Below are positions 7,701 through 50,800 of a DNA stretch of 64,000 bases, in pieces (positions within the stretch are counted from its first letter, which is position 1; every line of letters begins with the position of its first letter). The position numbers and the translations under genes were made by a program. The notes beneath the pieces are model-generated. The model ran no database searches. It was not told where the DNA came from and saw only the letters and a program-made list of their open reading frames with translations. This stretch comes from Apostichopus japonicus (Eukaryota > Echinodermata > Holothuroidea > Aspidochirotida > Stichopodidae): the NCBI RefSeq assembly GCF_037975245.1, contig NC_092568.1:33822501-33886500 (forward strand), in the 5' to 3' direction.

Positions 7701-10700
7701 ATGGCACTTCTTGGACTTACTTCGTATGAAAATTGGATCATATTTCTACTGTACATTATTGTATCAATCAACCATGGTAAGATTGGATCATATTGGATCA
7801 TATTTATACTTATTATACATATTTATTATTGTTTCTTATTCTATCAAACCATGGTAAGATTGGATCATATTTATATTGTGTACATCATTGTATTAATCAA
7901 CCATGGTAAGAAGATTATGTCAGACAAGTTGGCATTAAGTTTGAGTTAAATTTGGGTCACATATTTTAACATTTTAGGGGTGGACTATACCTTATCAATT
8001 AGAAATTTTGAGTGTATGTATATATGAAACAATGTAATGGAGAAACGTGATGAAAGTTCTCAAATAATGAGATTGCTTGGTAGTTTAATATGGTATATAT
8101 AATTTGTTAACAGTTTTGTACACTCACACAGAATAGTGATCAACAGTTGATCCCAATATCTGAAAATGGTAAATTGTTTAGAGTTTCAAAGTATGGTGAC
8201 TAGTGTCCTTCCTGGACTCTGTGACTCTCAAATTGTTTGAATTCCGTGCTAGTCAAACATTTCTCTGATGTTTTCAGATTTGTTAATAATTTCCCAGACA
8301 GTTTTTACATTGTTCCTGTGTTGGCTTTCTAACCCTTGGTAATTTACTAAACTAAAAGTATAATGTGTACTGTATGTGTGTATTTATCCAACACAGCCAT
8401 ACTAACAACTGCATCCCAGGATGGGAAGAAGTACAAGTTTGATGCCACATCAGCGGTGCTCTTAGCCGAGATACTGAAGTTAGCTACCGCATGTGCGCTA
8501 TTCATATTTTGGGATAAGTGAGTGATGGCGTCTTTGACTTTCTTTAAACTTCTTGAAAGCTTGTCATGAATTTTAGGAGTCAGCTACTTAAAAAAAGAAA
8601 AGAAAAAAAAAAGAAGATGAAATGTTGTAAAAGCTATGAAACATGAAACAGGAGATGTTTATAATAATTTTGTAAGAGGTTTTCAGCAAATATTATGGAG
8701 CAAATACAATACATGTTGCTCAAATTTAAGATTAAACTTTTATTCAAGGTATATTTTGTATAGATATTTCAGAGAATTACGACATGGCATGAAAATACTG
8801 TTTACACAATTATAAGTATCATTCATCATTTTATATTCTTCACCTTTCGTACATTTCTTCTTACGATCTTCGCAGAAATTCATTTCGGAATCTACTCTAC
8901 GAAGTGTCAAGTCATAAGAAAGGTAAGGATTATAATAGAAGATAAGATTTGAAATAATAGTAAGTTATTTCCATACAATTGGAATGTGAAAAATTTGAAG
9001 ATTTGCTTCCATATTTATTCAAATTTAATTGAATTCAATCTAATTTCATTGTATTTCAATCAATCATATATCAATCAAGTTAAAAGCGATATATGCATGC
9101 ATGGTCATTAAGGTATGTTTTATTTTTTTATTTTTATAAATCAAGGTGAATATCTTAAAATTGAAATTAGCCTAGGATCAAATTTGAATTTGCTAATGAT
9201 ATAGGTGATACGATGGAGAAAGCAACATACTCATAAGAGTGTAAGATATTTACTGCAGTTTCAGGTTTAGTGGGAGAGGAACATACGGTACCGTACATCA
9301 AATTGAGTAACTTCCTGTCCTCTTCACTCAATTCCCTTCACCTTGTCCTCCATCCCACCCTATCCCATGCCCCTTCTAGTAATCAAAATCACTCTGGCCT
9401 CTAACAATAGCAGTGCTGATCTCTTACCTCTTTTCCCTACAATACCTTGTCATGTCATTTATATTGCATACTGTGTGGGATGGTCCAGTTATAAATACAA
9501 TATTTAGATGTAATGCATACCCCCCCCCCACCTTCCTCCTCTTCTTTCTCCTCCTTCCAAAGGTTTAGGATACAGGTATACTTCATGCATACATATAGGA
9601 TGTATGTATACTTCTTGCATGTACATATATGGGATACATGTATTATACTTCATGCTTACATATAGGATACAGGTATACTTCATGCAAACATATAGGATAC
9701 AGGTATAATACTTCATGTATACACTTAGGATACATGTATTATACTTCATGCTTACATATAGGATACAGGTATACTTCATGCAAACATATAGGATACAGGT
9801 ATAATACTTCATGTAATACATATAGGATACAGGTATTAAACTTCATGCTTACATATAGGATACATGTATTATACTTCATGCATATATAGGATACATGCAT
9901 TTTACTTCATGCATACATATAGGATACAGGTATTTAGTATACTTCATGCATACATATAGGATACATGTATTTTACTTCCTTCATACATATGGGATACAGG
10001 TATACTACTTCATGCATGCATATGGGATACAGGTCTTATATTTCATGCACACATACTGTATGGGATACAGGTATTATACTTCATGCATACATATGGGATG
10101 CATGTATTATACTTCTTGCATACATATGGGATACAGGTCTTATACTTCATGCAAACATATAGGATACAGGTATTATACTTCATGCAAACATATAGGATAC
10201 AGGTATTATACTTCATGCCTACATATGGGATGCATGCATGTATTATACTTCTTGCATACATATAGGACACAGGTGTTATACTTCATGCACACATATAGGA
10301 TACAGGTGTTATACTTCTTGTATACATGTAGGATGCAGGTATTATACTTCATGCATACATATACTTTTTTTAGTACTACCAAATGAAGGAGATTAAGATT
10401 GCTGTTAAAAATGTTACACAGCTCTTGCAATAAAGGATAGGTCTGTCGTAGTGAAAATGGATTGTTTTTTGTAATAATGAAAGAGAAACACATTCTAAGC
10501 GTTCCTTTCATTTCTCAGATATTAGTAGTTGAAACTATATTGTAACTTGAACTTTTGTCATATCTACACACTGACATTTCAAATTTTCTTGTAATGTTTT
10601 TACCCAAAGTTGATATCAAACTTTCTACATCACATCACTTTTGCTGATCATGTTGTAGACCTACCATGTGACCTGCACTCTTGTGAAATTATCATCAAAT

Positions 10701-11935
10701 TTCATTCTTCATTCCTTTTTGTTTTTCCGGCAGTCATGGCATTGTACAGCATCCCAGCATTCCTTTATTCGCTTAGCAATAACCTGTCCTTCATCAACCT
10801 CAGCCTCCATGATCCAACGACATTTATCATCATGATGCAGCTAAGAATTGTTCTAACAGGAGTCATATACCAAGTGAGTCCACCTGCCGTAAGTTGACTT
10901 CATGATTCTTTTCATGAATGTACTGTACCTTACTTCATTATAGCAACAGTGCTGAATAGAATGGTTCTCCATCAGTTCAGTTCAGTTTAGTTCAGTTAAT
11001 TTATTTCGCAAATATACATAGACATACAAAGCAGTGCAGTAATGGTATATACAGGATACTAGAAAAAAACATAAAATGTTTATCAAAGCTAGTAACCCTA
11101 AAGAAAAAGAAAGAAAGTAACAGAACAAAGTAAGAAAGAAAAAACAAAATTGTACGAAACAAAATTGACAATAATATCAATCAAGCCATAGTCAAGTCAG
11201 CCTATACATCATATTGACATGACCAGCACCTTCTTTGCAACATGGTAACACAGAAAGTCAAAATTCCCTGTTAGAACAGCAATCTTTCATTTTTTTTTTC
11301 ATTATCCGTTTCAGATTCTCTTCCAAAAGAAACTCAGTTGGTTACAATGGATTTCACTCATCGTTCTCACCTGCGGTTGCATAATCAAGCATTTGGATTT
11401 CTCGGCCGAGGAGGACACCATCACCAGCATCTATAATTTTCCCTTCACGATAGGCCTCGTCTTCTTACTTCTGCAATCGTGCATGGCGTTGTTTGCCGGG
11501 ATTTACACGGAATATCTCCTCAAGGGCAAGAAGGAAGACGTCAACATTTGGATTCAGAACATCTACATGTACGTTCATTCCATTTTTTGGAACTTCGTCT
11601 TTGCTGTCGTAGCGGCCAACTTCTTAGACGACCACTTTTGGAAAACTGAAGAATCGATCTTTCAGCCCAAAGTTCTCGCCATCGTCTTTAATTATTTATG
11701 TTTCGGTATTGTCACCAGCATCTTCTTGAAGATGCTTAACTCTATCGTGAAGAGTTTTGCGATCGCCATCGAGATGGTGCTGATGCCCGTCTTGGGTCAT
11801 TTCCTGTTTGGCGTCCCTGTAAGTGTTTCCACAGTTCTATCCATCGTTCTAGTCATCATTGCCGTTCAAATTTATTCGAGAAATCCTGTGAGCAACCAAC
11901 CATCGCTGCCTCGAACAAGAAAGGACAGTAACTGA
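7701..11935 (+). CDS. SLC35A-type nucleotide-sugar transporter, 5 exons
   Basis: Coding exons: 7701-7776, 8397-8517, 8876-8922, 10734-10873, 11315-11935. All introns are GT-AG, phases match, and the product is 334 residues, usual for the family. These are multi-pass Golgi/ER transporters that exchange nucleotide sugars for nucleoside monophosphates. Family marks: a 'TSAVLLAEILKL' helix after the first membrane segment, 'PAFLYSLSNNLSF', the 'AGIYTEYLLKG' motif (members usually have AG-Y-E-LK) and, in the last exon, 'LNSIVKSFAIAIEMVL', matching the conserved N-I-K-F-A-helix near the C-terminus. Exons 2-4 are short and exon 5 carries the C-terminal 206 residues. The substrate cannot be told from sequence; A1-A5 subfamilies are all possible. 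The exon 1 donor is triplicated (separate entry). Possible poly(A) signals are AATAAA at 12207 and 15199. Confidence 0.87.
7733..7910 (+). repeat. Triplicated 3' end and donor of SLC35A-like exon 1
   Basis: Three copies of 'attggatcatatt...atcaa(c)ccATGGTAAG' end in donors at 7777, 7854 and 7906. Use of the first donor gives the standard protein. The third also leaves phase 1 and adds exactly 129 nt (43 codons, hydrophobic). The second leaves phase 0 and would hit a TAA in exon 2 at once. The copies differ by small indels. Confidence 0.85.
9565..10368. repeat. Intronic minisatellite, about 33-bp unit
   Basis: About two dozen degenerate copies of a unit like 'aggatacaggtattata' + 'cttcatgcatacatat' fill the middle of intron 3 of the SLC35A-like gene (8923-10733). 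Units vary between about 30 and 36 bp. Because the main period is divisible by three, several frames on both strands stay open and encode an 11-residue repeat; these frames are not genes. Confidence 0.93.
10965..11200. repeat. Possible non-LTR element 3' end (reverse)
   Basis: A short (TTCAG)n-like run, 'cagttcagttcagtttagttc', is followed by 'aatttatttcgcaaatatacat' and an A-rich stretch in intron 4. This looks like the reverse complement of a LINE tail with its terminal microsatellite. No reverse transcriptase sequence is present, so the call is tentative. Confidence 0.3.
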
Positions 11936-14900: not shown

Positions 14901-15600
14901 ATTTATAAATCATTTCGGTTTTAACTCATCTGCAATCTTTTTGGTAAATGCTGCTATCAAGCTCAAAGTTGCTAATGTGTATAGAATTATACTGTATGGA
15001 CTTTTTTTTAAAATATACTTCCTAATATTTACAAACTGCTTGCATAGGTTGGAAACAACCTTTCACTTCATCTCTGAAAGTGTAATCTGCTTCTTACAGT
15101 GCCTTTCTAGTTTTAAGTTTCTGGGTGTAAGCATGTTTTATTGGGCATTACATTCTGTCTTTATTATTTAATTATTTATTCTTTTAAAAATGAATACAAA
15201 TAAAGATTAAAATTACTTAATATACAATGTGGTCTTTTCATTTTTATTAATGAGTTATGATACATATTTGTCTTCATTCAGTAGGGGCAACAACAAAGAA
15301 ACGTTGGAAATATATAACAAATGAATCAAGGTGAAAGCTATTGATTTAAATCTTTCAAAACTTCTATAAATTCTTTACAGGATAGAAACTATAAGCATTA
15401 CATTTTTCTGCTACTAGTATTTTATTACATTCAAGGGTGCAGAGTTTAATGGTCAGTTATATATATTATTCGCACAGTAGAGACACATAGTAGAGACACA
15501 CTCGCTAGAGAGGAATATTTACAGTAGGGCAAAGAGCATGATAAGAAAGAAAAATTCTTACATCTTCCTTGTTCATTATTAATCAATAACTAAATATTGA
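11936..15600. other. 3' flank / intergenic, SLC35A-like to AK7 side
   Basis: Presumed 3' UTR and spacer of the SLC35A-like gene, AT-rich. It contains AATAAA at 12207-12212 and 15199-15204, an (ATA)n microsatellite near 13516-13531, a long G-run cluster at 13992-14017 and another near 14691-14701. No coding exon is supported. Confidence 0.5.
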
Positions 15601-15604
15601 ATCA

Positions 15605-16886: not shown

Positions 16887-19800
16887 TTATTCACTGACCA
16901 TGTAATCAATAGCATCATCTGGTCTGACTTTACAGCACTCTATCAGACCTTGGGTCAGGGTTGGCATGACATGTTTCATAAGATAATTTCTTAAAGGGAT
17001 TGCTTGATTTTCCAAAAGTTCAAGCTCTTGCCTCTTCACTTCATCTAGTCTGTTTTCCTACAATGAGCAAACAAAATTTCCGATTTTATCAACTGACAAA
17101 TGTTCATATTAGCTGATCTCTTACTTAACATCTGTGCCACTTGATAACACTCAAGAAACCTTCGAGATATGCAGATAGCATATCAAAATACCCTACAAAA
17201 ATATTTTAGCCAAATTCATATTTGTTCAGACACAACAGTTAAAGCTCCCTTTAAAGTTTCTTTCTTTGCTAGAAGCCCTTTACAACCATTAGCAGATCCA
17301 TGGCTCCAGTTCAGGCTACCACTGTAGTTTTGCTTCAGTTTTGATAAGATTTATGACAACAACCTGTGTTAAATTTTCTTTCCTTACGTTTAAACAGACT
17401 AGAGTGAAATCATTGCATTTCATGTTTGAACTGAAACATTTCCAATGATTTTTCTTGACTTAATTTGTCATGTTAGTGTAACATCTGCCATCAAACTTCA
17501 TCGTTACAGTTATTTCAGACACCCACCCATTCTTTCATCGTGACTGTTATTTCAGACACCCACCCATTCTTTCATCGTTACTGCTATTTCAGACACCCAC
17601 CCACCCATTCTTTAATCGTTACTGTTATTTCAGACACCCACCCATTCTTTCATCGTTACTGTTATTTCAGACACCCACCCATTCTTTCATCGTTACTGTT
17701 ATTTCAGACACCCACCCATTCTTTCATCGTTACTGTTATTTCAGACACCCACCCATTCTTTCATCATTACTGTTATTTCAGACACCCACCCATTCTTTCA
17801 TCGTTACTGTTTTTTCAGCCACCCACACATTCTTTCATGGTTACTGTTATTTCAGACCCTCACCCATTCTTTCATCGTTACTGCTAGTTCAGACACCCAC
17901 CCACCCATTCTTTAATCGTTACTGTTATTTCAGACACCCACCCATTCTTTCATCGTTACTGTTATTTCAGACACCCACCCATTCTTTCATCGTTACTGTT
18001 ATTTCAGACACCCACCCATTCTTTCATCGTTACTGTTATTTCAGACACCCACCCATTCTTTCATCGTTACTGTTATTTCAGACACCCACCCATTCTTTCA
18101 TCGTTACTGTTATTTCAGACACCCACCCATTCTTTCATCGTTACTGTTATTTCAGACACCCACCCATTCTTTCATCATTACTGTTATTTCAGACACCCAC
18201 CCATTCTTTCATCGTTACTGTTTTTTCAGCCACCCACACATTCTTTCATGGTTACTGTTATTTCAGACCCTCACCCATTCTTTCATCGTTACTGCTAGTT
18301 CAGACACCCACCCATTCTTTCATGGTTACTGTTATTTCAGACACTCACCCATTCTTTCATCGTTACTGCTAGTTCAGACACCCACCCATTCTTTCATCCT
18401 TACTGTTATTTCAGACACCCACCCATTCTTTCATCGTTACTGTTTTTTCAGCCACCCACACATTCTTTCATGGTTACTGTTATTTCAGACCCTCACCCAT
18501 TCTTTCATCGTTACTGCTAGTTCAGACACCCACCCACCCATTCTTTAATCGTTACTGTTATTTCAGACACCCACCCATTCTTTCATCGTTACTGTTATTT
18601 CAGACACCCACCCATTCTTTCATCGTTACTGTTATTTCAGACACCCACCCATTCTTTCATCGTTACTGTTATTTCAGACACCCACCCATTCTTTCATCGT
18701 TACTGTTATTTCAGACACCCACCCATTCTTTCATCGTTACTGTTATTTCAGACACCCACCCATTCTTTCATCGTTACTGTTATTTCAGACACCCACCCAT
18801 TCTTTCATCATTACTGTTATTTCAGACACCCACCCATTCTTTCATCGTTACTGTTTTTTCAGCCACCCACACATTCTTTCATGGTTACTGTTATTTCAGA
18901 CCCTCACCCATTCTTTCATCGTTACTGCTAGTTCAGACACCCACCCATTCTTTCATGGTTACTGTTATTTCAGACACTCACCCATTCTTTCATCGTTACT
19001 GCTAGTTCAGACACCCACCCATTCTTTCATCCTTACTGTTATTTCAGACACCCACCCATTCTTTCATCGTTACTGCTAGTTCAGACACCCACCCATTCTT
19101 TCATGGTTACTGTTACTTCAGACACTCACCCATTCTTTCATCGTTACTGCTAGTTCAGACACCCACCCTTTCTTCATCGTTACTGTTATTTCGGACACCC
19201 ACCCATTCTTTCATCGTTACTGTTATTTCAGACACCCACCCATTCTTTCATGGTTACTGTAATTTTAGACACCCACCCATTCTTTCATGGTTACTGTTAT
19301 TTTAGACACCCACCAATTCTTTCATCATTACTGCTATTTGAGACACCCACCAAATCTTTCATCGTTAATGCTATTTCAGACACTCACCCATTCTTTCATC
19401 ATTACTGTTATTTCAGACACTCACCCATTCTTTCATCATTACTGCTATTTCAGACACTCACCCATTCTTTCATCCTTACTGTTATTTCAGACACCTACCC
19501 ATTCTTTCACCGTTACTGCTATTTTAGACACCCACCCATTCTTTCATGGTTACTGTTATTTCAGACACTCACCCATTCTTTCATCGTTACTGTTATTTCA
19601 GACACCAACCCATTCTTTCATCCTTACTGTTATTTCAGACAGCCACCCAATCTTCATCGTTACTGTTTTTTTCAGACACCCACCCATTCTTTCATCGTTA
19701 CTGTTATTTCAGACACTCACCCATTCTTTCATCATTACTGTTATTTCAGACACCCACCCATTCTTTCATGGTTACTGTTATTTTAGACACCCACCCATTC

Positions 19801-22800
19801 TTTCTCTCGTTCTTCTCGCATCTTAGCTTCTGCTTCTTCTTTCCTCTCTCTTTCCTCTTTCTCCTCTTCCTCCTTCTTCAATCTCTTCTCCGTCTCGGTT
19901 CTCTCCGCCTCTGCCAGTTCCTCTGGGGTGGGTCCATAGTTCCTCGGTTCTCCCATGATCTTGATGATCTGTTCTGCGATGTTTGTATTCTTTTCTTCTG
20001 TCTCCTTGGTAATATCTGACAGATTTTGATAGACAAAATTGGATAAAATTTATAGGTAATATGCACAGATCTATCAATAGGTACAAAGGAAGTATTTAAG
20101 AATTAGGAAGAATATGTGTATGATGAAAAAAGATGCAACACTTGGTGAACAAGCTGGAACAACAAAAAAACACCTTCAAAGTTAAATGGCCTGGCCTGAA
20201 AAGAGCTAAGAATTTTTTCTGAAATGGTCAAACCTTCCCCCAGTAGTGGATGGCTGCATGACATGTAATTGTTTCACTATAACACTTGCATACAGAATAA
20301 TCTAATATACAATTGTACACTCACTTTTGCACATGCTATTTTGGTACAGTCAATTTCTGGTTCCTAACTATTTTATATGATTTAGTGTGGTGAATAGGAC
20401 TCTTTGGCATTGCTTCAATTCTTATTTAAAATACGTTATTACGTCACCTGTTTTGTTTTCAATACAGTCAGTCTAATGTTGCACCCTGAGCTCTTTACAT
20501 CTACTCTTGCCTTCTATAAAGTCTTATCTTCCATCAGAGGACTAATTAATTACAGAAGTTCTGGAAATACCCCCCTATATTCAGTGTCTCTCTGACTGTG
20601 CTGTCACACTTCAAGTCAAAGTCGGTAAGGATAAATAATTAATTGCAAATAGACTTAGATACACAAACAAATTAATTCAATTTGGGCCTTTCTATATATC
20701 TCCAGGAAATTTGAGATGAATATCATCATGCATCTTCTAGTCAATCAATTCCAAAAATCTCACCGATATGTTGAGGGTGGATCTCAAGCTCGTCAAAGTA
20801 ATTCAGTACAGTGTTATCCTCTTCGTTAAGGCTTCTAAAGTCAGCCAGGCGTCTGGTCAGGCCTGCTTCAGTGTTGTGAGTGCCGGCCACCACTTGCTCG
20901 GGCAGGTTCATGACCCTCTGTTTTAAGAAATCATCTGGAGCTTCTAACGAGAGGACCACCTCGGGCATTGTTCCCTTATCGTAAACAGGAATTTTACTAT
21001 TCTCCTCCTGTTCCTCTTCGTCATCGGCTAAGTATGTAAAAAACAACATAGATGTTATTGTCAGGTATAAGAAATGAATAAAAAAACAAGGTATGTTCTC
21101 ATAATGCGGGTAGCAATTTAAGGAAAGAATGGTCAGAAAGGGAAAAATGAATGAAGTAAATTTTCATATTACATCATCTTAAACAGATTAATTATAAATT
21201 AAGCTTTAACGAGATCTTGATGTAAATACCAAATTTACACAGGAGAACTGATCTACATGAATGAGTTGACTATATCGAGGATTTGAAGTGATTGGCTGAT
21301 TACAGAGCTAGATCAACTGACGTGTGGATTCACACTGATGGGAACAGGTTGATTGAGGTTATTATATGTAACATAACAAACCGTTTATCAATAATACAGC
21401 AAATGGATTGGTGTTTTTAACTACGTATCTTTGCTCAACAGATCGAGCGACATGCGACCAACTTAATTGATCCCTGTCGGGTATTGGGAGAGAATGGTAG
21501 ATAAAAATCGCCTGGCACCTGCTTATTTTAACTCCATGCCGACTCATTAATTTCAATGAACCAGTCTGTATCCAATTTGAATTCTTAAAGATAAGACCTA
21601 CCAGCAAACAATTCCTTGGCTTGTTCCAAGGTCTTTGGATATCCATCCAGAATGAATCCTTGGTTCTGACAAGGCATAGAGTGCAGTTTGTCACGGTAGA
21701 AGCGGATGATATATTGGTTTTCAATCCTCCCTTTGGGGGGGAAAAAAAAAAGAACAAATATAATAATTCGGTCAAACATTTTTGTTTTTCATTTTCTATA
21801 TATAAAGTTTTTTTACCCCCTTTTTTATTTATCTTGTTTCATTTATACTGGACTGTGGTCTATTAAAATGTATAACAGAAGTGTTTAAGAACACACATGC
21901 TTATCACAATCAAACATGTACTATACAATCCACATATGCTAGTAATTACTGTGTCACTTATGTATTTGGATTACAACCACATTGGAATATGTGGTCGACA
22001 GTCGTAGTCATCATATTATCAAAATTCAAATTTACATTACTACGTTCATTCAGTCGTCCTCAGTGGTTCTGTCTCACCTTAAATGAAGCATAATACACAA
22101 GCCATATCAAAAGCAGTTGCTTAGATTTGGTTGTGACAAATTTCTGCTACCACATCTACATTGGCCACAAGGATCACACCAACTTATTTGATGTCATTTG
22201 CTCCCATTTTCAAACTTATCTAGTATACACTATTTCAGATCTTAGTATTGTATATATTAGGAGTTGTCGACACAACATGACCAGAGAGAAAGTTTTAAAG
22301 AGGAGGAATGGCACTTACGATAGCAACATGACCAATGTGGTCTTCAATGATTACTATAGATTCCATTAACTTTTACAGAGGAGGAGGAGGGGTTCTTTAA
22401 CAGAGGGGTTCTTTTATGGAGGAGAAGGGGTTCTTACAATAAGCAACCCAACCAATGTTGTCTTCAATGGTTACTATTGATTCCATTCACTTTTACAGAG
22501 GAGGAGGGGTTCTTTTACAGAGGAGCAGGGGTTTCTTTGACAGAGCAGAATGGGTTCTTTTACAGAGAATAAGGGTTCCTTTACACAGGAGGAGGGGTTC
22601 TTACAATAGCAACCGGACCAAGGTGGTCTTCTTTAATGCTTTTACCATTGTTTGATTCTTTGCTTTCATTGATAGAATCTAAGAGTTCTTGATCTTCCTG
22701 AGCTTTCCCATCATCGTCTTCATTCTCATCTGCATCTGCTCGTGCGGCACTCTTCTCCTGTAGGAAGAAACATTTGACAAATGACCCTGTTTTGTCTCCT

Positions 22801-25800
22801 CATCACAAACGTTTTTGTTCTCAAAAACAATGTTTTTAATTGTTTATTCCAGGTATGATTACATTTTTCTTTGTAAAGTTTTACACATAGCTATGTACAG
22901 AAAGGAGCAAAAAACAGGTGATAATATAAAATGGAATCACCTAAAATCACAAATTAGCTTTAACGGTTAAAAAAACAATTGTGAAATTGAACTGAATTAG
23001 CTAAGTTTAATAATTAATAGATAAACAACTACAAGAAAAAATACAAATAAAGAGTCCCTCTCTCCCTACCCCCTGAAAGGAAGCAAGCATTACAACAAAT
23101 ACAACGTTCTGTGACACTTCTCAAGCTTTGGTCCCTGTAACATCACCAACACCTTGCAGAAACAACTATCATTGACTGCTTTTAAACTTTTATTTCAGTT
23201 TCTGAATAAACAACAGCTATAGAAATGACTGGTCACTTGTTAAATTACCGACAGAGGAGTATCAAGCTTCTAAACTTACCAGATTTGCGATAGCTTCATC
23301 GATCACATCTTTGATCTTGATGTGATGTAATTTATAGTGCTTGCAAAGAGCAGCAACAATGGAGGACTTCCCTGATGCTGGTGGACCAAGAACACAAGCT
23401 CTCATAGGCTGATTTGTAAAAGAAAGATGAAGATACAGTCAAAAGAGGGAAGAAAAAATATATAGATTAAAGCAGTGACATGTGATGTACATGAAAACAA
23501 ATATTACTTTATTGTGCTTTCTATAGGTAGATGTTTGCCTACAGTGTAGAAATCAGGGTGGGATTACATCTGCTGTTTCAAGCAACAGTGCTTTGATATA
23601 TCTTGTACCAGCTGTTTTCAAAGTTATTATGCTATATTTGTTATGTTATAATAAAGTTTGAATGAGGGAATATATTTCTGACCAAACATTGTTATCCGAA
23701 GACTGATCACGTTTGAAGTTTGAGATATTAAGTTTCTCTCAGATGACTTGAGACAAACAAGCAAATCTCTATCTGACCACTATAGCCTTTTTATCACAAT
23801 TTTTATTTTCTTGAAGAGAAAACAACTAAACGTCACGATAAAATTTGTAATTTCATTCATTTTCTCTTCCTCCATGCAGATTGGCTTGAAAGACAAAAAT
23901 GCACAGCTGTGGTCAAACTTTGGACTATTATGTTACTGTCTTCATCAGAGTTGTAGTTTTCAAATAGACATAGCCATAGGGGGAAATCATTTAGTTGGGT
24001 GATGTTGTAAATACACAAGTGCACGTTGAAGGGATAAAAAAAAAACCGAGATGGTTCTGATACCGTTTTTTACCACTCCGCATAAAGTGCGTAAGAAGAC
24101 ACAGAAAATACTACGATAATTAAGATCCTTGAAGTTGTAATTACAAGAGCCGAATAAAAGAAGAGAATAAAGATAAAATACACGACTCGTGTCCCTATAA
24201 CATTCGTAAAAAACGCCAGAACAGTGAATAAAAGATCATCGAACTCTGCACTAGAAACGTGATTACTGTAAGTAGATTATATGTAGCTTACTACGTACTG
24301 TTCGCTATGTGATTATAGGCCTTATCGTCTTTCGTGAAACTAATCTACGGTGAACGTAAACACTGTGTGCAACATCGCGTTAGTGTAACGTTTATAGGTC
24401 AGTTGTAAACAGCGTGTTTTATTGTAGGCCCGTTGCGTGATACATGGAACTCTGTGGTATATGGCCTGAATAAAGAGTACAATATGGCCGATAATTCGGG
24501 AAAGGAACAAGCCACATTGCCCGACATTGGGGCCGGAGAAACTAGTATCATGGATTCCATAAACCCTGAAGATAGTGTGTCGTTAGTCAATATTGTCAAT
24601 AATCCAGATAAATTAAAGGGGCATACTGATAGTGAAGTGTCAGTGAAAACAACTGTTTCAGTGTTGTTATATAGGACAAAGCAGAAGGAAATAGAGATTG
24701 CTGCTCGTGCAGCTGCATTGAAGGAAACAAAGAAACTAGAAGAGAGAAAACGTAACCTACAAGTGGAGTATGAATTGCAAGAAGCACAAGATGAAATCCG
24801 ACATGCCCAGGAGAAGGCAGAAAGGGTTAAACAAAGAAAACAAATGGAAGAAAAGAAGTTACAGCTTGAGACTGAACAACAAGAAATTGATATGATGGCA
24901 GAACTGGAAGCAGCCAAAGCTATGTCAAGGCTACTTCAATTGCACGAAAGGCCAGAAAGTGATGTGTCTGCCAAACTTACCAAAGAGGTTGTGAAGAGCA
25001 TTGAGTTAAAATCATTTCAATACTTACCAAAGTCTGATGATGAAGCAAAGAAACATAGTGAAGGGGAAAATACTAGAATAAACCCCAATGCAAAGAAATT
25101 TGTATCCCGACAGAACATCACTGTGCCTGACAAACCTAATGACAGTGGAAAATACTTATCACCAAATAATGGTAATGAACATGCACAGTATAATCAAACA
25201 AAACCAACATATGCAGGAGTTTGTTATGGCCAACCACTTCCAGATATAACTACCAAACCAGATGACACTGTCAACACTGGTATTTCAATGGCTACCCTTT
25301 TGAATAAAATTGTTGACCATCAAAGGGAATCTGCCCTCCCTTCGCCACGACTGGATCCATTTGACGGGAGTGACCTCTTGTCATTTACACCGTTCATAAG
25401 AAACTTTCAGCATGTGGTGGAGGATAAAACCCAAAACCCAGCCCGGAGATTAGAGTTGTTATTAAGGTTCACCGAAGGGGAAGCACATGATCTAATTAAG
25501 GAATGCACAGCCATAGAGCCCCCAGCAAGTGGATATGAAAGGGCAAAATGGTTGTTACAGAGAAATTTTGGTCAACCCCAGGTTTTGGCGGCAGCGTACA
25601 AATCTAAGGCAGAGAGCTGGGATCATATTGCAGTGGGAGATAAGATTGCCTTAAGAAAATATGCCATATTTCTTATCAATTGTTGCAATGTACAGCAGGG
25701 TAACCCAGAAATGGATAGTATGAATGGTTATGAGTTCCTCAGAATACTTGCACAGAAATTGCCAACAGCCTTGCAACAACAATGGATTAACCAAATGGGT

Positions 25801-28800
25801 CGATTTAGGGATGTAGAGATGAGGTCACCAACCTTACAAGATTTTGAACAGTTTGTTGGACAACATTCGAGAAATGAAAATGATCCTAGGATTGCAGGTC
25901 TTGGATATCAAAACAAAATGAAAGATTGGAAGACCCCACAGAAATATTCAAAGGTGGTGACAAGCAAGAGGGCTTTTGCAGCTACTGTGAAAACAAATGA
26001 GGATGATAAAGCTTTCAAGGGAAAAAATGAGAAGATGGAAAACAAGGCCAAAATATCACCATGTTTGTATTGTGGACCTAACACTTATCATACCCTACTT
26101 GATTGCAGGAAGTTTGGTTCACTTGACCTACAGGCTAAATCAGATGTGTGTATGAAGAAAGGGCTTTGTTTTGGTTGTCTAAATCCTGGTCATCTAAAGA
26201 GAAATTGTCCAAATCCAGAGTGGGCAAAATGTGAGAAATGCAGCAAATCCCATCCGACCATCCTTCATGATCCTGCCAGAGAAAAGAAATCATCAGATGA
26301 AAGGGTGACTCAAACGGTCACTACTGGTTGTGCTGGTGTACAAAACGTAAGACCCCAAGGAAACAAAAACAAGAAGGTCACTGGTACTCTTATGGCTATT
26401 ACTCCAGTTTTGATCAAACCAAAGACCAGTGACAGATGTATTGCCACATATGCCTTTGTTGATAATGGTTGTGGTGCTGTCTTTGTTGATGAGTTCTTGA
26501 AAGACAGTTTAAAGGTGAACACCCGAAGAACGAAGATCTTGATAAAGACTTTGAATCTTCAGCAAGTCCAGACCACTGATGTCATTGTAGGAGATCTGCA
26601 AGTAGGAAACATAAATGGGACTTCTTTTATAGACCTCCACTCTGTCTATGTCAAAGACAGTATCCCAGCAACCATGGATGATGCACCAACCCAGAATGAT
26701 ATTGACGCTTGGGATCATTTGAGCCACATTAAACTCCCAAGTATGGATGGTCACAACTCCATACCTCATGTCACCCTAATGATTGGAAGCAATGTCCCTG
26801 GGGTGTCAATGCCGTTGGAAATTGCCTCCGCCGAGATTGGAGATCCATATGCTATCAAGACTCCCATTGGGTGGTTAGTGTATGGACTTGAAGGCAAATG
26901 GATGGACCAACCCGAAGTAAACGTCAACTTTTGCCGAGTAGACAATGGTATTGTCCAGAATGGTACAGATAATTTGGAGCAACAACTCCAGTCCTTCATT
27001 AACATGGATTTCACAGAACGTCTTTCTGACCAGAAAATTGCCATGTCTGTTGAAGACAAGAGGTTTATGACAATGATGGAGGAATCTGTAACCAAAGTAC
27101 ATGGCCATTATGAAACAGTACTTCCTTTGAGAGATAGAGCTGTTAAGATGCCTAATAACAAAGTTCAAGCAGATATGTTTGGTCTGCGATTACAAAGGAA
27201 GTTGAAAACAAATGAGAAATTGGCTTCAGAATATACAGAGTTTATGGAGAACCTGGAGAAGAAAGGATATGCAGAGAAAGTACCAGATCAGGATGTTGAC
27301 CGGAATGATGGAAATGTTTGGTATATACCACACCATGCAGTTTACCACCCAAAGAAACCGGACAAGATCCGAGTGGTATTCAACTGTCCCATCCAGTACA
27401 AGGGAGTTTCCCTCAACGAACAACTCTTATCTGGACCAGACCTAACCAACCGATTGTATGGTGTTCTGATGAGATGGAGGCAAGAGAACGTGGCCATCAT
27501 GGCAGATATAGAAGCCATGTTCTATCAAGTAAGAGTAAGAAAGGATGATTGTGATCTCCTGAGGTACCTATGGTGGCCTGAAGGCAACTTCGATGGAGGT
27601 ATGAAAGAATACAGGATGCTAGTTCATCTATTCGGGGCAGTGTCCTCCCCAAGCTGTGCCAATTTTGCCTTGAAGAGGACAGCTAGTGATAATCAACATA
27701 GATTTCAAGATAAGGTGATCGAGTCAGTTATCAACGACTTCTATGTAGATGACTTTCTAAAGTCTGTGGCCACTGATGAAGAAGGAATCCAGATATATAG
27801 AGATCTAAAAGAAATCATGGCTAGTGGTGGATTCAAGCTAGTCAAGTGGGTCAGCAACAGTAAAAGATTGCTGGAGTCCATCCCAGAAGATGACCGAGCC
27901 AAAGAACTGAAAGGGCTTGATCTTGAAAATGACGAGCTGCCAAAGGAAAGGGCGTTGGGAGTTCAGTGGTGTGTTGAGAGGGATCAACTTGAGTTCAATA
28001 TCACAAAAGTAAACGAAAAGGCCACAAGAAGAAATATCTTGTCTGTGATGAGTGCAGTGTATGATCCTATTGGTTATGCTTCACCTTTCCTTCTACAGGC
28101 AAAGAAGATATTGCAAAGTCTTTGCAGACTGAAGGTAGACTGGGACAGCGATATACCTGACGACCAACGGAATGAGTGGGGAAAATGGCTAAAGGAACTT
28201 CCTATTCTAGAGAGGTTAAAGATACCAAGATGTCTCAAACCCAAAGAATTTGGTAAAGTGGTGAACATCCAGATGCACTATTTTGCCGACGCAAGTCAAG
28301 AAGGTTATGGTACTGCAACTTATATGAGGTATACTAATGACAGAAAGGAAATCCATTGTGCCTTTCTTACCGGCAAAGCCAGAGTTGCACCACTGAAACC
28401 ACATACAATCGTGAAGATGGAGCTCACAGCAGCAACATCAGCCGTGAAACAAGATGCCCAGCTCAAACAAGAGCTTACAGTGAATATCGATGAAACAGTC
28501 TTTTGGACTGACAGTCAAACAGTCCTGAAGTACATAAGAAGTGAAAAGGCAAGACATCCCGTCTTCGTCGCTAACAGAATTGCGATAATTCATGATGGTT
28601 CAGATGTCCATCAGTGGCGATATGTCCCATCAAAGCTTAACCCAGCAGACCATGCTTCCCGTGGGTTAAGTGCAGATGATTTGCTCACAAAGGAAGATTG
28701 GTTAAATGGACCAGAGTTTCTTCATCAGACAGAAGATTTCTGGCCATGTGAAGACGACAGTAATGATGCTGATTCTGATAGAGAGTGTGAGAAAGAAGTC

Positions 28801-40936: not shown

Positions 40937-41649
40937 TGTGAATATGGAACGCGAAAAGGACCACAACATATGATGATGTTAATAATGATCTAATTTTATA
41001 CGATCATGTACTGAAAACTTACGATCATGTACTAGAAATACACGATCATGTACTAAAAATTTACGATCATGTACCAAACATATACGATCATGTACTAAAT
41101 GTATCATGTTCTAAACATATACGATCATGTACTACAAACGTACGATGTACATTAAAACAAATCGATCATGTACTAATTTAATGAATATTCAGTGTAAACT
41201 CATAAAGAACCACTAGGGGCGGGGCTTCGGTATCAACTTTGATATTCCTATATTCCTTATATATGGATATTCATACGCGTATTCAAACGACAATAATGGA
41301 TATCCATACGCCACTTTTTTGTAACTTGCGCTTTTTCATCATCATCACAAGTTTTCAGTACATGATCGAATATGTTTTGATGTACATCTTACGTTTTTAG
41401 TACATCATCCTATATGTTTTGATGTACATCTTAGTTTTTTAGTACATCATCCTATATGTTTTGATGTACATCTTAGTTTTTTAGTACATCATCCTATATG
41501 TTTTGATGTACATCTTAGTTTTTTAGTACATCATCGTATATGTTTAGTACATCATCGTAAGTTTTTCAGTACCTGTACATGAACATATAAAATTAGATCA
41601 TCATTAACATCATCATATGTTGTGGTCCTTTTCGCGTTCCATATGTGAA
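40937..41649. mobile_element. Foldback DNA transposon upstream of HHAT
   Basis: Element 40943-41643 (701 bp) flanked by TGTGAA on both sides (40937-40942, 41644-41649). The 58-bp ends, starting TATGGAACGCGAAAAGGACC, are inverted copies with one mismatch. Inside them the left arm (about 41000-41170) repeats ACGATCATGTACT about seven times and the right arm (about 41355-41580) repeats an 'agtacatcatcctatatg' + 'ttttgatgtacatctta' unit, roughly the inverse, so most of the element can fold back. It has no coding capacity. The superfamily is unclear; if the target is TA, mariner is possible. Confidence 0.88.
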
Positions 41650-41821
41650 CACTGTACATGTTACTGTTATGTGTGGAATGCTTCATTCAGGGACCTACAG
41701 TAGTCTAGGCCTAGTTTCTCTTTTTAACTTTTTTCTTCCTATTTTTCACATGCATTTATGCATTCAACTGCCACATGTCAACTTTGTCTATTTACTAGGC
41801 AATTGGCGACCAGTCAGAATA

Positions 41822-44800
41822 ATGGATAAACCACCAACGATCAATAGTGAAGAAAGTGAAGAGGTGACGCCAACTGAAGAAAGCAACGGAAAGCCTCATC
41901 ACAAACAAAGAATATTTGATGACTTTTATGATACCATACCAAGGCTAGAAATATTAGGATATGGCATCTTCCTGATTTGTTACTATTGCACTATTATATA
42001 TAAATTCTGCAAATTATCAAAGAGTAAGTTATTGTGCTCACAGTCTCCCTTTTAAAGGGTGTGAAGACTCGCGCAAAAATAAACATCTAATGCCGGTAAT
42101 TTGACCTAGTTTCGAATGAGGTGTAACAGAAGTGTTAAACACCACCATCGATCCCAGAAAATACACACACAGCTTGCTACCGTCGGTAATTAGACACTAG
42201 TGTACAGTAAGTACATACAGCTGCGGTCAATACCCACAGCACAGTATACAAACGATACAGCGATGGACATCTCAGGTCCAGCTAAAGATAACAAGGTACA
42301 GTATCACGTTTCATTACTGTCTGCATTTTGTAGCGACACGAACAAAACGTCACTTGCAAGCAACAGAAAGTTAACTTTTTCAGATGGCCGCACACGGTTT
42401 GGGGCAAGTCTTCAGTGCCTTTAAAGGCATTGAAGACTCGCCCCAAACCGCATGTTAGCAAGCTTACAGACGGTTAGCAAGCTTTGTGTGTATTTTCTGG
42501 GATCGATGGTGGTGTCTTAATCTTCTGTTACACCTCATTCGAAACTACCTGTAGGTCAGATTACCGGCATTAGACGTTTCTTTTTGTGAGAGTCTTCACA
42601 CCCTTTAACCATAATTTAAGAACTTACCAAAAAAAAATGTATTGTAACATGGCAGCTATACATTGAAAAGCAACATTACTCATTTTAACATGCTAGTTCA
42701 TTCTCATACCATCATTATAGACGTTGTACAGCTACTGTACATTTCTGTCATTTATGATGTATTATTCTACAATTTACCAAAAAACATTCCGAAACAGTGT
42801 TCAAATCTAGAAGGTACCTGACTGCTCAGTTGATATCCCTGAAGTGTGTATCAACATGGAAAAGCTCTTGTTTCTGTCATGCTTTGTATTATTACTTTCC
42901 CATAATGTATACTGATGTGTTAATTTAAAGTAGCTCTTCACAATAATTCATGCTACTGTATATATCAGCATCAGCCTCCTTAAAATTCTGTTCCCAGGTT
43001 TCTATTTCAAAGGCTATTTTTCTTTCTTTTAAGCTTATTTTTCAGTAGCCAAAAAAAACATTCTTATGTATCTATTGCATACAGAAAATTATTCTTTGGC
43101 AATGTTTAAATCTTCTTCTCATTTTTTGTTTTCAGAGAGAGAGGCAAGTTTACTTGAATACAACTACATTCATGAAGGATGGAGCATGATAAACAGAGGA
43201 CAAGTACGTTGATTTGGTTATTTCTTAAAATTGCAGCATGCTCAGTATTCTTCGATCAACTCTTAACCAATTCACACAACTACTGTTTTCCACATACTGT
43301 TCACAAATAATTATCAAATGAAAAACAAATATATTTATGAAGTAGTGGGTTATCTGATTTTAAAGTTCAATTCTTTGAATTACTGCAATGTTGTACCTGG
43401 GAAAGAAATGGTATACGATACTTTCATACTGTATCTTATAAATAATTTATGGTTGATTATTGTCTGAAGTGCAAGAAGAAAATGCCAACATACACTACTT
43501 TTCAATGTGTTGTAATGTTTAAAACTATTAGTGCCACTTGACAGATAATAAGAAATAGTAGTAATAATTAAATAATATTATACTAAAAGGTTGCATTTTC
43601 CCCTTTAGCTCAATGTTCTCCAAAATAAGCCTAATGATCTCTAATTAATTTGTAGACCATATCTGCATCCTTTACTGCTTTCACATACAAATAGCTACTA
43701 CATCATTTTAATTAAACATGACAAAAGACTGTCCACCCCTAGTACACCCTTCCCCTTATTGTTCATTCAAATTTGTGGTTCAACACTTTGTTTAACCCTA
43801 GCTTTACTTTCTGTCAATGTCCATGAAATATTTTGTTTCTAAATATAAAATGACTCATCTTCAGTTTAGGAGGCTCTCGCCAGATTCTGTCGTATAAAAG
43901 TGAAAGGGTACACAAAGTTGAACTTTCCATTTCTTTATCAATTTTTCTTTGAGTTAAAATGAAATTTCCTTATTTGATAACCATCCCAAGGGTGAAATTT
44001 TATTAATATTTTTGTTATTGTTTTCATCTTGACAGGATTCTGACTTTGAGTGGGATTATTGGTTATCACAGCTCACAAGACCCTTTCTTGGTCTGTTAAT
44101 TTCTTACATATTACTATGTAGGGCAGTGGAATTCTTTATCCCAAAGGTACAGTTAAGTATGAGATGTTTGCTGTACAGAGACTGTGGTCTGAAATTTTCA
44201 ACAGAAATAAAATATTTTATAATTCTGATTGATGTTGGTTGATTTGAAATATTTAGTGCAACTTAAGTTTGTGCCATGCTTTATTATTCTATATCTGCTT
44301 TGGTTGGAATGTAATTATCTTAACATTTTGAGATCCTGCTTTCAGACAAATTTGATGATGATGCACCTACTGTATGTACTAAACTTTTCATTATAGGCTA
44401 CAATAGTCCTTTATATTCCTGTTGACTATTGTGTTGCTTCTGAGGTGTTGATGTAATGTTGTCCATGCCATAACAGATAGTCCAGCCAGGTTTAATAGAT
44501 GAACATGGAATGTTTGAGTGCAAACTATTCAAACACTAAGAGGGATATTGAAGTCCAACCTGCACTGATAATACTGTTTGTTATAGTGTATTAAATATTA
44601 AAATGACTCAAGTTATAGGTTCATGAATGTGATTTACATGTTGAAATATGTACATGTATACCAGTGCATGTTCTCATGCAAATCCCCCAAAATGAATTAT
44701 ATATATTTTCCTGTTTAAGGATCAAGGTTATATGAACCTGTTATAGACTTAAATCATCTTGCAATACCTTCCATTAAAACATTATCATGTCAGCCTGTAT

Positions 44801-47800
44801 GGTAACTGCATACGTAGCTGATTGACCTAACTGTTATGCTTAAATACTCATTATGGCTTGGTGATAATGCAGGCATGTAAGAGTTAGGAATGCTCAGATT
44901 TTCGTTAAACTTTTAGTGAATGTTATTACGAATAATGAAGTATTACGGGCCTGTATTACAGCATATAGTTTGGTCGTCAGCTCCACAGTATTGAGTTTCA
45001 TACTTAGTGACCCCTATACCCTTCAACACAAGACAAAGTGTTGCCATTTCTTCCACAGTACTGAGTTTCACTCTGAGTGATCCCTGTACACTTTAACACA
45101 GCATAGGTCTTGTTATCTTCTCCACAGTATCAAGTTTCATACTTAGTGATCCCTTTACACTTTCACACAGCACAAGAGTCTTGTCATCTCAACAGTATCA
45201 AATTTCATAATGAGTGGTCCCTGTACATCTTAACACAACACATAGTCTTGTAAACAGCTCCACAATATACAATAGAGTCATATTGAGTGGTGTCTGTACT
45301 CTTTAACACAGCACAAAAGGGTTGCAATTTCTTCCACAGCATCTAGTTTCATACTGAGTGGTACCCTGTGCCGTTTAACACAACACATTATCTTGTAAAC
45401 AGCTCCACAATATAGTGTTTCATATTGAGTGATGTCTGTACCCTTTAACACAGCACAAAGGGTTGTCATTACTTCATACTGAGGGGTCCCTGTACCTTCC
45501 AACACAGAATATAGTATTGTAATCTCCTCCACAGTATCGTGAGACCTGTCTCATATTGAGTGGTCTGGGCTTCCTTTACGGCGTGTTTAACTGGAGGGTT
45601 ATAACGTGTCTGATTTTACTGACTATCATCACTTACTGTGTGAGCAGAACAAGAATGAAGAGCCTGATTTGGATTTCAGCAATCTTTCAGATGTGCATGT
45701 TCAACATTGATTATTTTCAACAATGGATTGTAAGTTTGATAGAAACACTTGATTTATTTTATATAGCAGTATTTTCTTACTGAATTAATTGTAAAAAGGG
45801 AGAAAAGGGATCGTGATGCCATCAACATGATGTATATCCTGCATTACGTTAATTTCATAAGGAACAAATTCTTGGTGTCAACAATTCTTGGTGTCTCGTG
45901 TTTAGTGTCTCTTTCTGACATGAAGAGGAGCTCTGAAACCTCTTATTCCTTGCAGAGAAAAATGAGATGAAAATACGTATCATTGATATGACATGTGTGT
46001 TAACATCTTTCAATCCCAAAGCTAATTTTCACCCATCTCGTATTAGTCTGCTATTGATAATAGAAAACAAAAGTACGGGGAATACATCAAAACAATGTTT
46101 TGAAATAGTTTACATGAAACCAAGTTAAGTAAGTTGTGAAATTTAAGTTTTTGGGGTTTTGGAAGCTTTTTCGCTATGTAACTGTTACCATCTCTGATTG
46201 ATACCGACAATGAGGGAGCATTTGAGACATTATTTGTGAAGTTTTTGTATATCAAAACAATGATAAAGCTAAAAATGTCAGGAAAAGAGAGATCGCATGT
46301 GACATCCTGCAGTACTGTCTCCATGCAAGTGTAAACATTTTAGTAATTATCAAATTGTTGACTTTCAATCCCTGAAAAGTAAATTGGCAAACAGTCTTAC
46401 AGCAAACCATGACACCTTGACAACACTGATAACTACCCTATACCTTACTCAGATATCTGCTAGATGCTGCATTGTACATGCCACATGTCATGCAACCAAA
46501 AGTATGTAGATGATTCAACAATGTGTGTATAGCGAGTACACATAGAGACATATAGAGAGACAGGGAGAGAGAGAGTACATAAATTCCTTGGGTCTCATCA
46601 CAATCAGATGAAACACTTTGATATTCTGAATAGTCAGTACAAAATAGAATCTCATCAAGTGCTGTTGTTTGTTCCATGAGAAGAATTTATACATGTTACC
46701 ACCTAATATTCCATCCAGTTATCTCCACTCATTTTGCATTGACTTTTCCCTTTAAGATTGACCTGTGCCATTGTTTTTGTTTACATGCAGGACATGGTTA
46801 TCGATCCCGACGACTATAATGATTTTAATTTCCTGACATCGTTGTGCCTCCTCAAGTTTCTCAGCTTTTCCTTGGACTGTTGCGATGAGAAGACTACGCC
46901 GTTGTGCCCTGTTACGAAAAGAAAACAGGACACATTATTTGATTTATTTGTGTACAACTTCTACCTCCCTCTCTTCCTCCTTGGACCAATCCATGTTTAT
47001 CCCAAGTTTAGAGAACAGGTATGTTTCTGTTAACTTGCTCAATATCAGTTACTTAGATTCAGACTAACCTTGAAACATCATTATGATGACATTGATTAAA
47101 GTGGAAAAATTAGGGAAATCCAATCAAATCTTACTTGGACCAATCCATGTTTATCCCAAGTTTAGAGAATAGGTATGTTTCTGTTAACTTGCTGAATCCC
47201 AGTTACTTAGATTTAGACTAACCTTAAAACATCATAAAGATGATTTTAATCGTTATGGACAAACCTAATGAAATTCCATCAAATCTTACTTGGACCAATC
47301 CAGCTTGCTATCAGTTAATACTTATCATCCTTTAAGTATTAACTGATAGCAGAATTTTAGTCATGGTACATCATAGTCAAAAGAAAAAAAATGAGAACTA
47401 GTAATGTTTCTATCATAGCTAAAATTCCAGTTTTCAAGATATTCTGCCCTAAAATTATGCGACTCTCTGGAAGGCCCCTTTTAGGCTAAATTGATGATGA
47501 CTCTGCTCCTCTGTGCAGTTCTAAATGTTAATGTCAATCCATGTCAACCAAAACAATGTTCCTTAAACTTCACATCAACAAGACTGAACCCTTGGATGAC
47601 ATCCAACATCATTTGTCATCGAAAGCATTATGCTGTGGAGAAATGAAATTCTTATGTTTTCCTTACATATATGTGTTGTGTCTGAGGAAGTGACCTAATG
47701 GTCTTTGATGCTAAACTAAGTATTGCAGCCACTTTAATTGGTGTGACTCGGATGTTTCAAGGTCATTTCTCCAAAATTAAAAGTGGTATAGAAATATAAC

Positions 47801-50800
47801 CTGGACTGATAGTGCAGTGTTTAACTGTCTCCAATATATTCAAATTGAATTTGTCTGTATCAAGAAACCAGATTTTACACAGTTTCAAGAATCATGATGA
47901 TAGTATCAACTAGAAACACATGTTCTCTATTCCAGTGAAGGGTAAATGTTTTTTTTTTTTTTTTCAAATTTGGAAAACATCACTTTTGAAGTTCATTGTA
48001 ATGATTACCCATGCTGCTATATAGTCATTTTTTGTTTAGCCACTAGAAATGAAAGAAAGTGGTTGTGTTTCGTATGTTTTCCGCAAAAACTGAGAATCTC
48101 AAGCAAAAATGGAAGATCTGTTATTCCTGCGTTAGGTCCGAAGAACACTGCAGAAAAACCTGCAACAGTATCTCGTCTTGTATTCCAGCTGAGTTTTCTT
48201 ATCAACATTTTGGTTATTTTCCACATTAAAACTGTCAAAGATGCACTCTTTTTGGCATTTCCTTTTACATGTTACTGTTTGTAGATGAACCAAGCTGTTC
48301 AACCTTGGAACAAGGACAAATATGTTTGTTGCTTTTGGGAGGCCTTGCACTATTTTGGTTGGATGTTTTTCATAGAGATTGCACTGCACTATTGTTACCA
48401 CCCATCCCTGACCTTTGACACAATCACGCTTAAGAATGCATCCTATGTTGAATGTGGTAGGTAAAGATTCCTTTATTTGTTTCAATGATTTCACAGTGCT
48501 TTGTCTTCCACATTCTTTAACTTGCCATTATATTTTCTAATTTTTTGCACTTGCCATACACAGAACACGAACATCCGTTTCATTAAAAATAAATTTCAGA
48601 CAGAATAGCTTGACTGTTGTTGACCTCATGAGTAAATCTCTTCTTGAAAGATGAGAACCACTCTATATATCTAGCTATCTATCTATCTATATATAAATAC
48701 TACACAAAAGTTTGCAGTACACTTCAAGTTATGGTTACAAAGTTTACACACTTTTTCCTTCTCCTGTGCAGCCGGATATGTCATGTGTAGTCTGCTCTAC
48801 TTCCAAATTAAGTACATGGCACTATATGGCTTCCCGAGGCTTCTGTGCCTGCTGGATGGCCTGGACTCCCCAAAGCCACCAATGTGCATTCATGCCATGT
48901 ACACCTTCAAAGATATGTGGAGGTATGTGTAAAGTACTTTGTATTCAAATCCTAAGTTGTTTTAAGGACCGAAAATTGTTTCAAGACTCTGCTTCAAAAT
49001 AGGTGGAGATTAAAGTGCATAGCATTTCTTAAAGTGTGAGTGTACTGATGGGGCTAGTAACCAGTGTGTAACAGGTTACAGGAGTTTATTGATGGTTGAA
49101 TGAATCTGAAGTGAACCTGTTGTAAATCACAGCGAATTATTGTTTGGCTGTTAATTTTCATTTATATTTAGCGTATTGTATGTAAATCACAGATCTTGTA
49201 TGTACACAAACCTCTCCTACATCTCCCCAACCTCCCCACCCCCAATCCACTCCCCCAACCCCTTCCCTGTATTGTAAACCATTTGAGAGGTCTGAGCCTA
49301 TCAAGACACATGTTAGACAGCAACAGTGAACCTGTTAATTTGTTTGAGTAATACTGCTGTCTGTATTTTACATCATAAATCAAGAGTTTCCCTTGCTTTT
49401 GGTTTCATATGAATCAAAGCATATATGTGACATATTCCAGAAGTTGTGTGATATAGCAAGTGACTGTATGTCTCTACATTAAAATGTACTGTTTCTTTGT
49501 TTTTCAGGTTTTTTGATAGAGGGCTGCATGAGTTTATGGTTAGGTAAGTATGACACGCCACTTGATACTAAAACCATCAGCTGAAGAATAGCTACTGCAT
49601 ATGCATGATTAATATGCATTCTTCTCTCATTTTAAATCAAACAGAATACTGATATATATACATCCTGGCTGTCATTTTAGAATCTTTGTAGCTTGATCCT
49701 TCTATAAAACAATTTGTAAGTTAATCTTTGAGAAAAATTCTGTGATACAAAATTCTCCTTGTAGAAAGTCCATGTATGATATTCATATTTGCCTCTGTGT
49801 CATTTCCTTGCCTATGAAAGTATGTAACTCAGTCATTTTTTCCTCATTTTTTGGCCTGCAGGTATGTGTACATTCCTCTGGGTGGTTCCAAGGCAGGCTT
49901 CCTTCGCCAGCAACTTTCCTCCATTTTGTGTTTTGCAATGATCACGTTCTGGCATGGCGGTGGTACCAACATCATTTATTGGGGAATCACAAACTGGGCT
50001 GGTCTTACAGTGGAAACACTTGTGGAAGTGACACTCAAGTCACATGTCCCTGATGAGGTTTGTTTCAATGACAATGTGCTTTTGTTCTTTTTATGTTATT
50101 GTTTCCTTTTGTAGAAATATTTGACATTGTTTGTGTTTTCTAATATTGGAAGTTTCCATCTGATATTTCTCCAGTCTACCTGGGTCAATCTGTTTGTTGA
50201 TGTATAAGTCGTCTTTGAACGCATACAGCCATCGTTATCTAATATTGGAAGTTTCCATCTGATATTTCTCCAGCCTACCTTTGTCAATCTGTTTGTTGAT
50301 GTATAAGTCGTCTTTGAACGCATACAGCCATCGTTATCTAATATTGGAAGTTTCCATCTGATATTTCTCCAGTCTTCCTGAGTCAATCTGTTTGTTGATG
50401 TATAAGTCGTCTTTGAACGCATACAGCCATCGTTATCTAATATTGGAAGTTTCCCTCTGATATTTCTCCAGCCTACCTGGGTCAATCTATTAGTTGATGT
50501 ATAAGTCTTTGAACGCATACAGCCATCGTTATCTAATATTGGAAGTTTCCATCTGATATTTCTCCAGCCTACCTGGGTCTCTGGTGCTATGAGGAGGAGA
50601 CTGATGGCAGCATTCAGAGGTCTCATGTACGTGTGCCTGTTTCCTTCCAATATGTTCTTCCTGTCAGGTGTGAGGGTAGGGAAGCTGGTCACCAGTAAAC
50701 TCTTATTTTCAGGTAGGTATTCAAGGTGTTCAATTATGGTTATGATGGTTGCAATGGTTTGATGATTGCGGTGGCAATGATGATGATGGTGGTGGCAGTG

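Follow-up and report, generated by a model that had tools for sequence, protein, structure and literature searches.

The 64,000-nucleotide stretch of the sea cucumber Apostichopus japonicus analyzed here (contig NC_092568.1, positions 33,822,501 to 33,886,500; hereafter the window) contains three genes, an SLC35A-like transporter gene, AK7 and HHAT, with tandem arrays at or beside several of their exon-intron boundaries. Are splice junctions special targets of tandem duplication in this species, or do the arrays reach junctions only because introns are full of such repeats? We found that the junction arrays are real and that they generalize to other sampled genes of the species. A preference for junctions, however, is not supported. 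Most probably the arrays are the common minisatellites (tandem repeats with units of roughly 10-100 bp or longer) of a repeat-rich genome, which survive where splicing can ignore them, rather than products of the junction. We rate the pattern as usual minisatellite biology that yields a useful by-product.

Six tandem arrays in three genes

The original prediction reported six arrays in these genes, and all of them were confirmed by sequence inspection and Tandem Repeats Finder (TRF):

7732..7910, + strand: three copies of the end of SLC35A-like exon 1 and its donor, with donors at 7777, 7854 and 7906; point test score 29
17497..19811, - strand: AK7 exon 15 donor array, 37 bp x 62, first intron base at 19794 (TRF, tblastn)
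22293..22602, - strand: array in the intron that follows AK7 exon 12, starting 43 bp from donor 22645 (TRF)
44958..45565, + strand: HHAT exon 4 acceptor array, unit of about 70 bp, ending in the exon that starts at 45535
46975..47302, + strand: HHAT exon 5 donor duplication, 154 bp, 2.1 copies, donors at 47019 and 47173
50135..50579, + strand: HHAT exon 10 acceptor array, 99 bp x 4.5, junction at 50568, 12 exon bases

As predicted, five of the six contain the exact junction together with exon bases, and the matched stretches include 7-44 of the latter (SLC35A-like exon 1, 27; AK7 exon 15, 10; HHAT exon 4, 7; HHAT exon 5, 44; HHAT exon 10, 12). At AK7 exon 12, 43 bp of intron separate the array from the donor, and the array thus covers adjoining intron without spanning the junction. 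All five junction arrays hold additional copies of a donor or an acceptor. The SLC35A-like donor copies read ACCATG/GTAAG at all three positions, at unequal spacings of 77 and 52 bp. The AK7 exon 15 unit is AGAATGG/GTGGGTG, and this array holds 54 copies of GAATGGGT (GAATGG/GT), the functional donor included. In HHAT exon 4, a pattern search found eight copies including the functional acceptor, six of them with AG at the site. The second HHAT exon 5 donor (47173) is preceded by TAG instead of CAG. The HHAT exon 10 array has five acceptors, TTTCTCCAG, at 50175, 50274, 50373, 50472 and 50568.

Array periods range from 22 to 154 bp. The copies lie head to tail at a fixed period, as in minisatellites and other tandem repeats, and TRF detected five of the six arrays. 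The sole difference from ordinary minisatellites is that one end lies inside an exon. The HHAT exon 5 duplication escaped strict TRF and was detected in a further run. Lenient TRF settings (score at least 100, period at least 20) gave 13 arrays in the window and 9.1% coverage. The SLC35A-like array was not detected by TRF even at score 60; it rests on sequence inspection, the point test described below and its donor copies.

Derivation of the arrays from a transposon is not supported: no dispersed related units were found in the sequence searched. A whole-genome search placed the HHAT exon 10 array at a single site, and none of the six arrays had a match elsewhere in the 337 kb examined (the window and the fetched loci). 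The earlier statement that the arrays are unrelated in sequence and not one transposon agrees with our result that none of them matches another place in the window.

Frequency of tandem copies at junctions and inside introns

We scored 159 introns in seven gene loci on four contigs: 29 introns of the three window genes and 130 introns of four dynein heavy chain loci (DNAH1, 70; C20, 28; C4, 21; C8, 11), the latter loci taken from a larger set of genome places given by a PF12774 search. DNAH1 was complete. All 4,209 residues of the annotated A. japonicus protein P0124 were mapped, which gave 70 introns with none unresolved. For the other three dyneins only the conserved motor exons were used, with introns accepted between 28 of 40 (C20), 21 of 35 (C4) and 11 of 24 (C8) adjacent exon-match pairs. 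The tandem-copy score of a point was its best ungapped self-match at an offset of 20-400 that covered 6 bp on either side, with an X-drop of 8, a threshold of 18 and microsatellites masked. Scoring without the X-drop let strong arrays bleed into the adjacent exon; with it, donors fell from 11 to 8 of 148 and acceptors were unchanged at 4.

Tandem copies were found at 8/159 donors and 4/159 acceptors, compared with 13.1/159 (95% range 8-18) at random points in the same introns. Combined, 12 of 318 junctions (about 4%) had a copy, versus about 26 expected from intron points. The probability of so low a count was 0.032 for donors (8 or fewer) and 0.0002 for acceptors (4 or fewer), with introns treated as independent and without correction for several looks. 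The direction was the same at a threshold of 25 (6 donors and 3 acceptors vs 11.6). The subsets of the sample gave the following counts:

Window genes, 29 introns: 3 donors and 2 acceptors, vs 3.2 (95% range 1-5) for each
DNAH1, 70 introns: 2 donors and 2 acceptors, vs 6.0 (3-9)
Complete genes, 99 introns: 5 donors and 4 acceptors, vs 9.2 (5-13)

Tolerance by itself would produce a certain depletion, because points near an exon edge have fewer freely duplicable neighbors. Inside introns, 11.6% of points lay in tandem copies, versus 27 of 4047 exon points (less than 1%), and 45 bp inside the exons coverage had fallen to 0/318. Since the sampled introns are at least as densely filled with tandem repeats, splice sites do not stand out as preferred targets. 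Junction copies that are no commoner than intron copies, together with a near-zero frequency in exons, point to ordinary minisatellites that survive where splicing ignores them. A striking pattern at the level of the window thus becomes a measured null, with the share of copied junctions below what intron density predicts. As a control for chance matches, the 318 junctions were placed in unrelated sequence, and none reached the threshold, at offsets of 160-400 only, the range in which 5 of the 12 real matches fall.

Junction-spanning copies occurred in three of the four dynein heavy chain loci and were absent from the C4 locus; in all, 7 of 260 dynein junctions had a copy with a score of at least 18. 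Their positions are:

36389, 56930 (weak, score 18), 65484 and 69916, in joined L008-L014 plus L027: DNAH1
31207 and 43085, in L015-L020, joined and reversed: dynein
18388, in L028-L032, joined: dynein

The copy of DNAH1 acceptor 69916 lies 252 bp upstream, and its 43 exon bases vary from the exon at four third codon positions only. Such third-position changes suggested whole-exon duplication at this acceptor and at donor 65484. We rejected this, as each copy was partial: neither of these two DNAH1 candidates contained a complete-exon copy of the kind expected for tandem whole-exon duplication (mutually exclusive exons).

Probable tolerance of copies on the intron side

How could such arrays persist at splice sites? 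In the explanation we favor, short local tandem duplications (units of about 20-400 bp) would form and grow in genes across this genome, presumably by slippage or unequal exchange. Duplications that alter the mRNA would be removed by selection, so that intronic ones would persist and exonic ones would be lost. A duplication crossing a junction would persist if its extra copies lay towards the intron, with the spliceosome keeping to the site adjoining the complete exon, a choice that exon definition (cross-exon proximity) might explain. The junction arrays would then be those intron minisatellites that happen to reach an exon edge.

All 12 junction copies lie on the intron side, although partly by construction: junctions were placed via conserved proteins, which in part favors this orientation. 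Two annotated A. japonicus proteins, P0241 (from a 60-kb contig) and P0242, both of which are gene models, served for comparison with the HHAT protein compiled here. Array units were absent from both proteins across the exon 4 acceptor, the exon 5 donor and the exon 10 acceptor, and both models agree with the choice of the exon-proximal site. Judging from the conserved proteins and these models, splicing probably still takes the site adjoining the exon, and splice sites therefore look like places where an additional copy is nearly harmless. The earlier suggestion that duplications are tolerated because splicing hides the copies thus gained indirect support from the orientation of the copies (12/12), the unit-free HHAT proteins and the absence of coverage 45 bp inside exons.

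Alternative splice sites compiled in a database, and minigenes, indicated that with long introns splicing prefers whichever site is nearest across the exon (PMC9225289). The likeness to our case is that splice sites of equal strength compete and that, with long introns, the exon-proximal one is favored; it was measured there, and in A. japonicus we infer it. Introns with junction copies were 386-2737 bp long. None of the 26 junctions of introns shorter than 300 bp was duplicated, but the interiors of the same 13 introns were likewise free of copies. Tandem repeats across exon-intron boundaries are also described (PMC2812944) for human genes in segmental duplications, where the internal repeats were either kept or spliced out. 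The human genes are recent paralogues with variable transcripts; the sea cucumber genes are conserved and keep the homologous protein. In the open-licence literature we found nothing on tandem duplication of splice sites or introns in sea cucumbers. If the pattern holds genome-wide, A. japonicus would allow the study, in nature and on a large scale, of how the spliceosome picks one of several almost identical sites lying close together.

Several points weigh against this explanation. Four of just seven loci are dyneins, and 39 of the 99 adjacent exon pairs in three of these had no accepted intron. In addition, SLC35A-like donor 7906 is predicted to leave the frame open with 43 extra residues, and the annotated HHAT isoform P0242 skips exon 6, beside the duplicated exon 5 donor.

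Are the copied sites used?

The last two points also favor an alternative in which the array acts as a splicing switch and use of the copied sites produces regulated isoforms. In HHAT exon 10, HHAT exon 5 and SLC35A-like exon 1, used and copied sites had equal crude consensus scores, and the AK7 exon 15 donor scored 6, inside the range of its copies (5-7.5). Copied sites were thus as strong as used ones wherever scored by this crude consensus, so strength alone need not decide between them. Donor 7906 would add its residues with no stop codon before the normal end of the frame, so the SLC35A-like array need not be silent; this is the one place where an isoform looks possible. The other copied sites that were checked would each bring an early stop codon: five upstream AG acceptors of HHAT exon 4, four acceptors of HHAT exon 10, the copied HHAT exon 5 donor, each of the 53 additional AK7 exon 15 donors and SLC35A-like donor 7854. 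As the two annotated HHAT models also use the exon-proximal sites, we consider regulated isoforms unlikely as the explanation.

Are junctions mutational hotspots?

Junctions might instead promote tandem duplication themselves, for example through AG/GT motifs or transcription-coupled structures that favor slippage. Five junction arrays inside 43 kb of one window, and the recurrence in dynein genes, would fit such a hotspot. However, neither the donor nor the acceptor profile of the 159 introns peaked at distance 0:

Donors, intron side: 13/151 at +120, 10/159 at +60, 7 at +18, 7 at +6, 8 at 0
Donors, exon side: 9 at -6, 7 at -12, 6 at -18, 4 at -24, 3 at -36, 0 at -45
Acceptors, intron side: 10/151 at +120, 6/159 at +60, 7 at +18, 3 at +6, 4 at 0
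Acceptors, exon side: 3 at -6, 2 at -12, 1 at -36, 0 at -45

Random joint shifts of the TRF arrays, which leave out the SLC35A-like array, showed no excess either. In 16,000-50,800, four of eight arrays contained a junction against a mean of 3.0 (P = 0.31), and in 7,600-50,800 four of nine did against 3.4 (P = 0.46). For DNAH1 it was 3 of 17 against 7.5. At a TRF score of 60, the counts were 4/16 vs 3.5 in the window and 5/51 vs 11.7 in DNAH1. The original prediction held that the window arrays do not lie at random in introns. The shifts in the window do not bear this out, and neither do its junctions, 5 of 58 of which had a copy versus about 6.4 expected. It had also called for a comparison of junctions with shifted control positions, and had named a genome-wide lack of excess as the refuting outcome. 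Run on the seven loci, this comparison gave no junction excess, and a hotspot is therefore very unlikely.

Donors and acceptors

Acceptors seem to tolerate copies less well than donors, but the difference was not significant (8/159 donors vs 4/159 acceptors; Fisher P = 0.38). At donors, arrays that come within about 20 bp continue into the exon (7 at +18, 8 at 0 and 7 at -12, of 159), and at acceptors they thin at the site itself (7 at +18, 4 at 0 and 2 at -12). It is possible, though doubtful, that donors and acceptors differ in tolerance, as a natural readout of exon-definition splicing, and that the genome holds thousands of duplicated sites of similar strength, some of which give new in-frame isoforms. 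If so, extrapolation from the 12 copied junctions of 318 would put those thousands in a single species, and some copied sites, such as SLC35A-like donor 7906, would yield the isoforms.

Intron gain

It is well established that introns can be gained by tandem duplication (PMC3443670, PMC4974935), and the second of these papers includes a potato RNA-dependent RNA polymerase gene with a duplication across an intron-exon boundary. The arrays could accordingly be intermediates in which duplicated AGGT-containing segments create new introns, an idea raised in the original prediction. The five junction arrays do hold AGGT-like or real splice sites within the duplication, and they share with the potato case a tandem duplication that crosses the boundary and copies splice sites. 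They differ from it in that no new intron is seen in the sea cucumber: an old intron holds the copies, often many. The window arrays add sites to pre-existing introns, and the exons scanned hold no exon-internal duplication. In all 159 introns the 120 bp surrounding the donor were compared with those surrounding the acceptor, and the two were barely more alike than the control (top scores 16 and 14, against at most 14 in the control; the 95% quantile was 11 for each). Apart from the weak match that scored 16, no duplicated segment supplying both the donor and the acceptor of a new intron was found beyond the control, and the sample thus offered no convincing example of intron gain. Intron-gain intermediates are extremely unlikely here. 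Short direct repeats of 4-30 bp near intron borders, described recently (PMC11782384), are a separate phenomenon from these arrays. If our result holds genome-wide, it would urge caution against calling junction repeats intron-gain intermediates without an intron-shifted control.

Finally, the arrays are extremely unlikely to be assembly artefacts, that is, haplotype-duplicated or misassembled sequence: tandem arrays are prone to misassembly, and the last two HHAT exon 10 copies, like neighboring AK7 copies, diverge by only about 3%, but copies diverge by about 16% in HHAT exon 5, 9% in the SLC35A-like gene and 23% in HHAT exon 4, many loci carry such arrays, and the published A. japonicus assembly was built from HiFi and Hi-C data (PMC10344927).

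Genes and other repeats of the window

The gene models of all three genes were drawn from homology:

7701-7776, 8397-8517, 8876-8922, 10734-10873 and 11315-11935, + strand: coding exons of the SLC35A-like gene, with the exon 1 donor GT at 7777
19795..20016, - strand: AK7 exon 15, located by tblastn with Holothuria leucospilota AK7
41822..50712, + strand: HHAT coding exons 1-10, by homology; the solved relative is human HHAT

Joined, SLC35A-like exons 1-5 keep the reading frame and encode a CMP-sialic acid transporter-like protein, whose relatives of solved structure are CMP-sialic acid transporters. Upstream of the start codon lies a 61-bp duplication (7514-7610) with TTTGCAGGTAC in each copy, which may be a duplicated acceptor of the 5′ untranslated region.

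AK7 is on the - strand. Its 16 introns were placed by mapping the H. leucospilota protein, to which the queried exon is 92% identical; the 120 proteins listed as matches included no AK7 annotated for A. japonicus. Between exons 10 and 11, antisense to the gene, lies a Pao/BEL-type long terminal repeat retroelement with an open frame of 2000 codons (24409-30411, + strand). Searches with two pieces of it found Peptidase_A17, integrase and DUF5641 domains, and a reverse-transcriptase match slightly below the cut-off.

In HHAT, the P0241 frame shifts after the initial residues of exon 10. P0242, annotated as isoform X2, skips exon 6 (48285-48456), which adjoins the duplicated exon 5 donor, and has exon 7 in a different frame; it may be derived from another assembly version. 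Two related arrays (72-84% alike) precede exon 1 at 40982-41572, and intron 1 contains a foldback element (42052-42608) with inverted arms of 57 and 73 nt that are 91-93% complementary.

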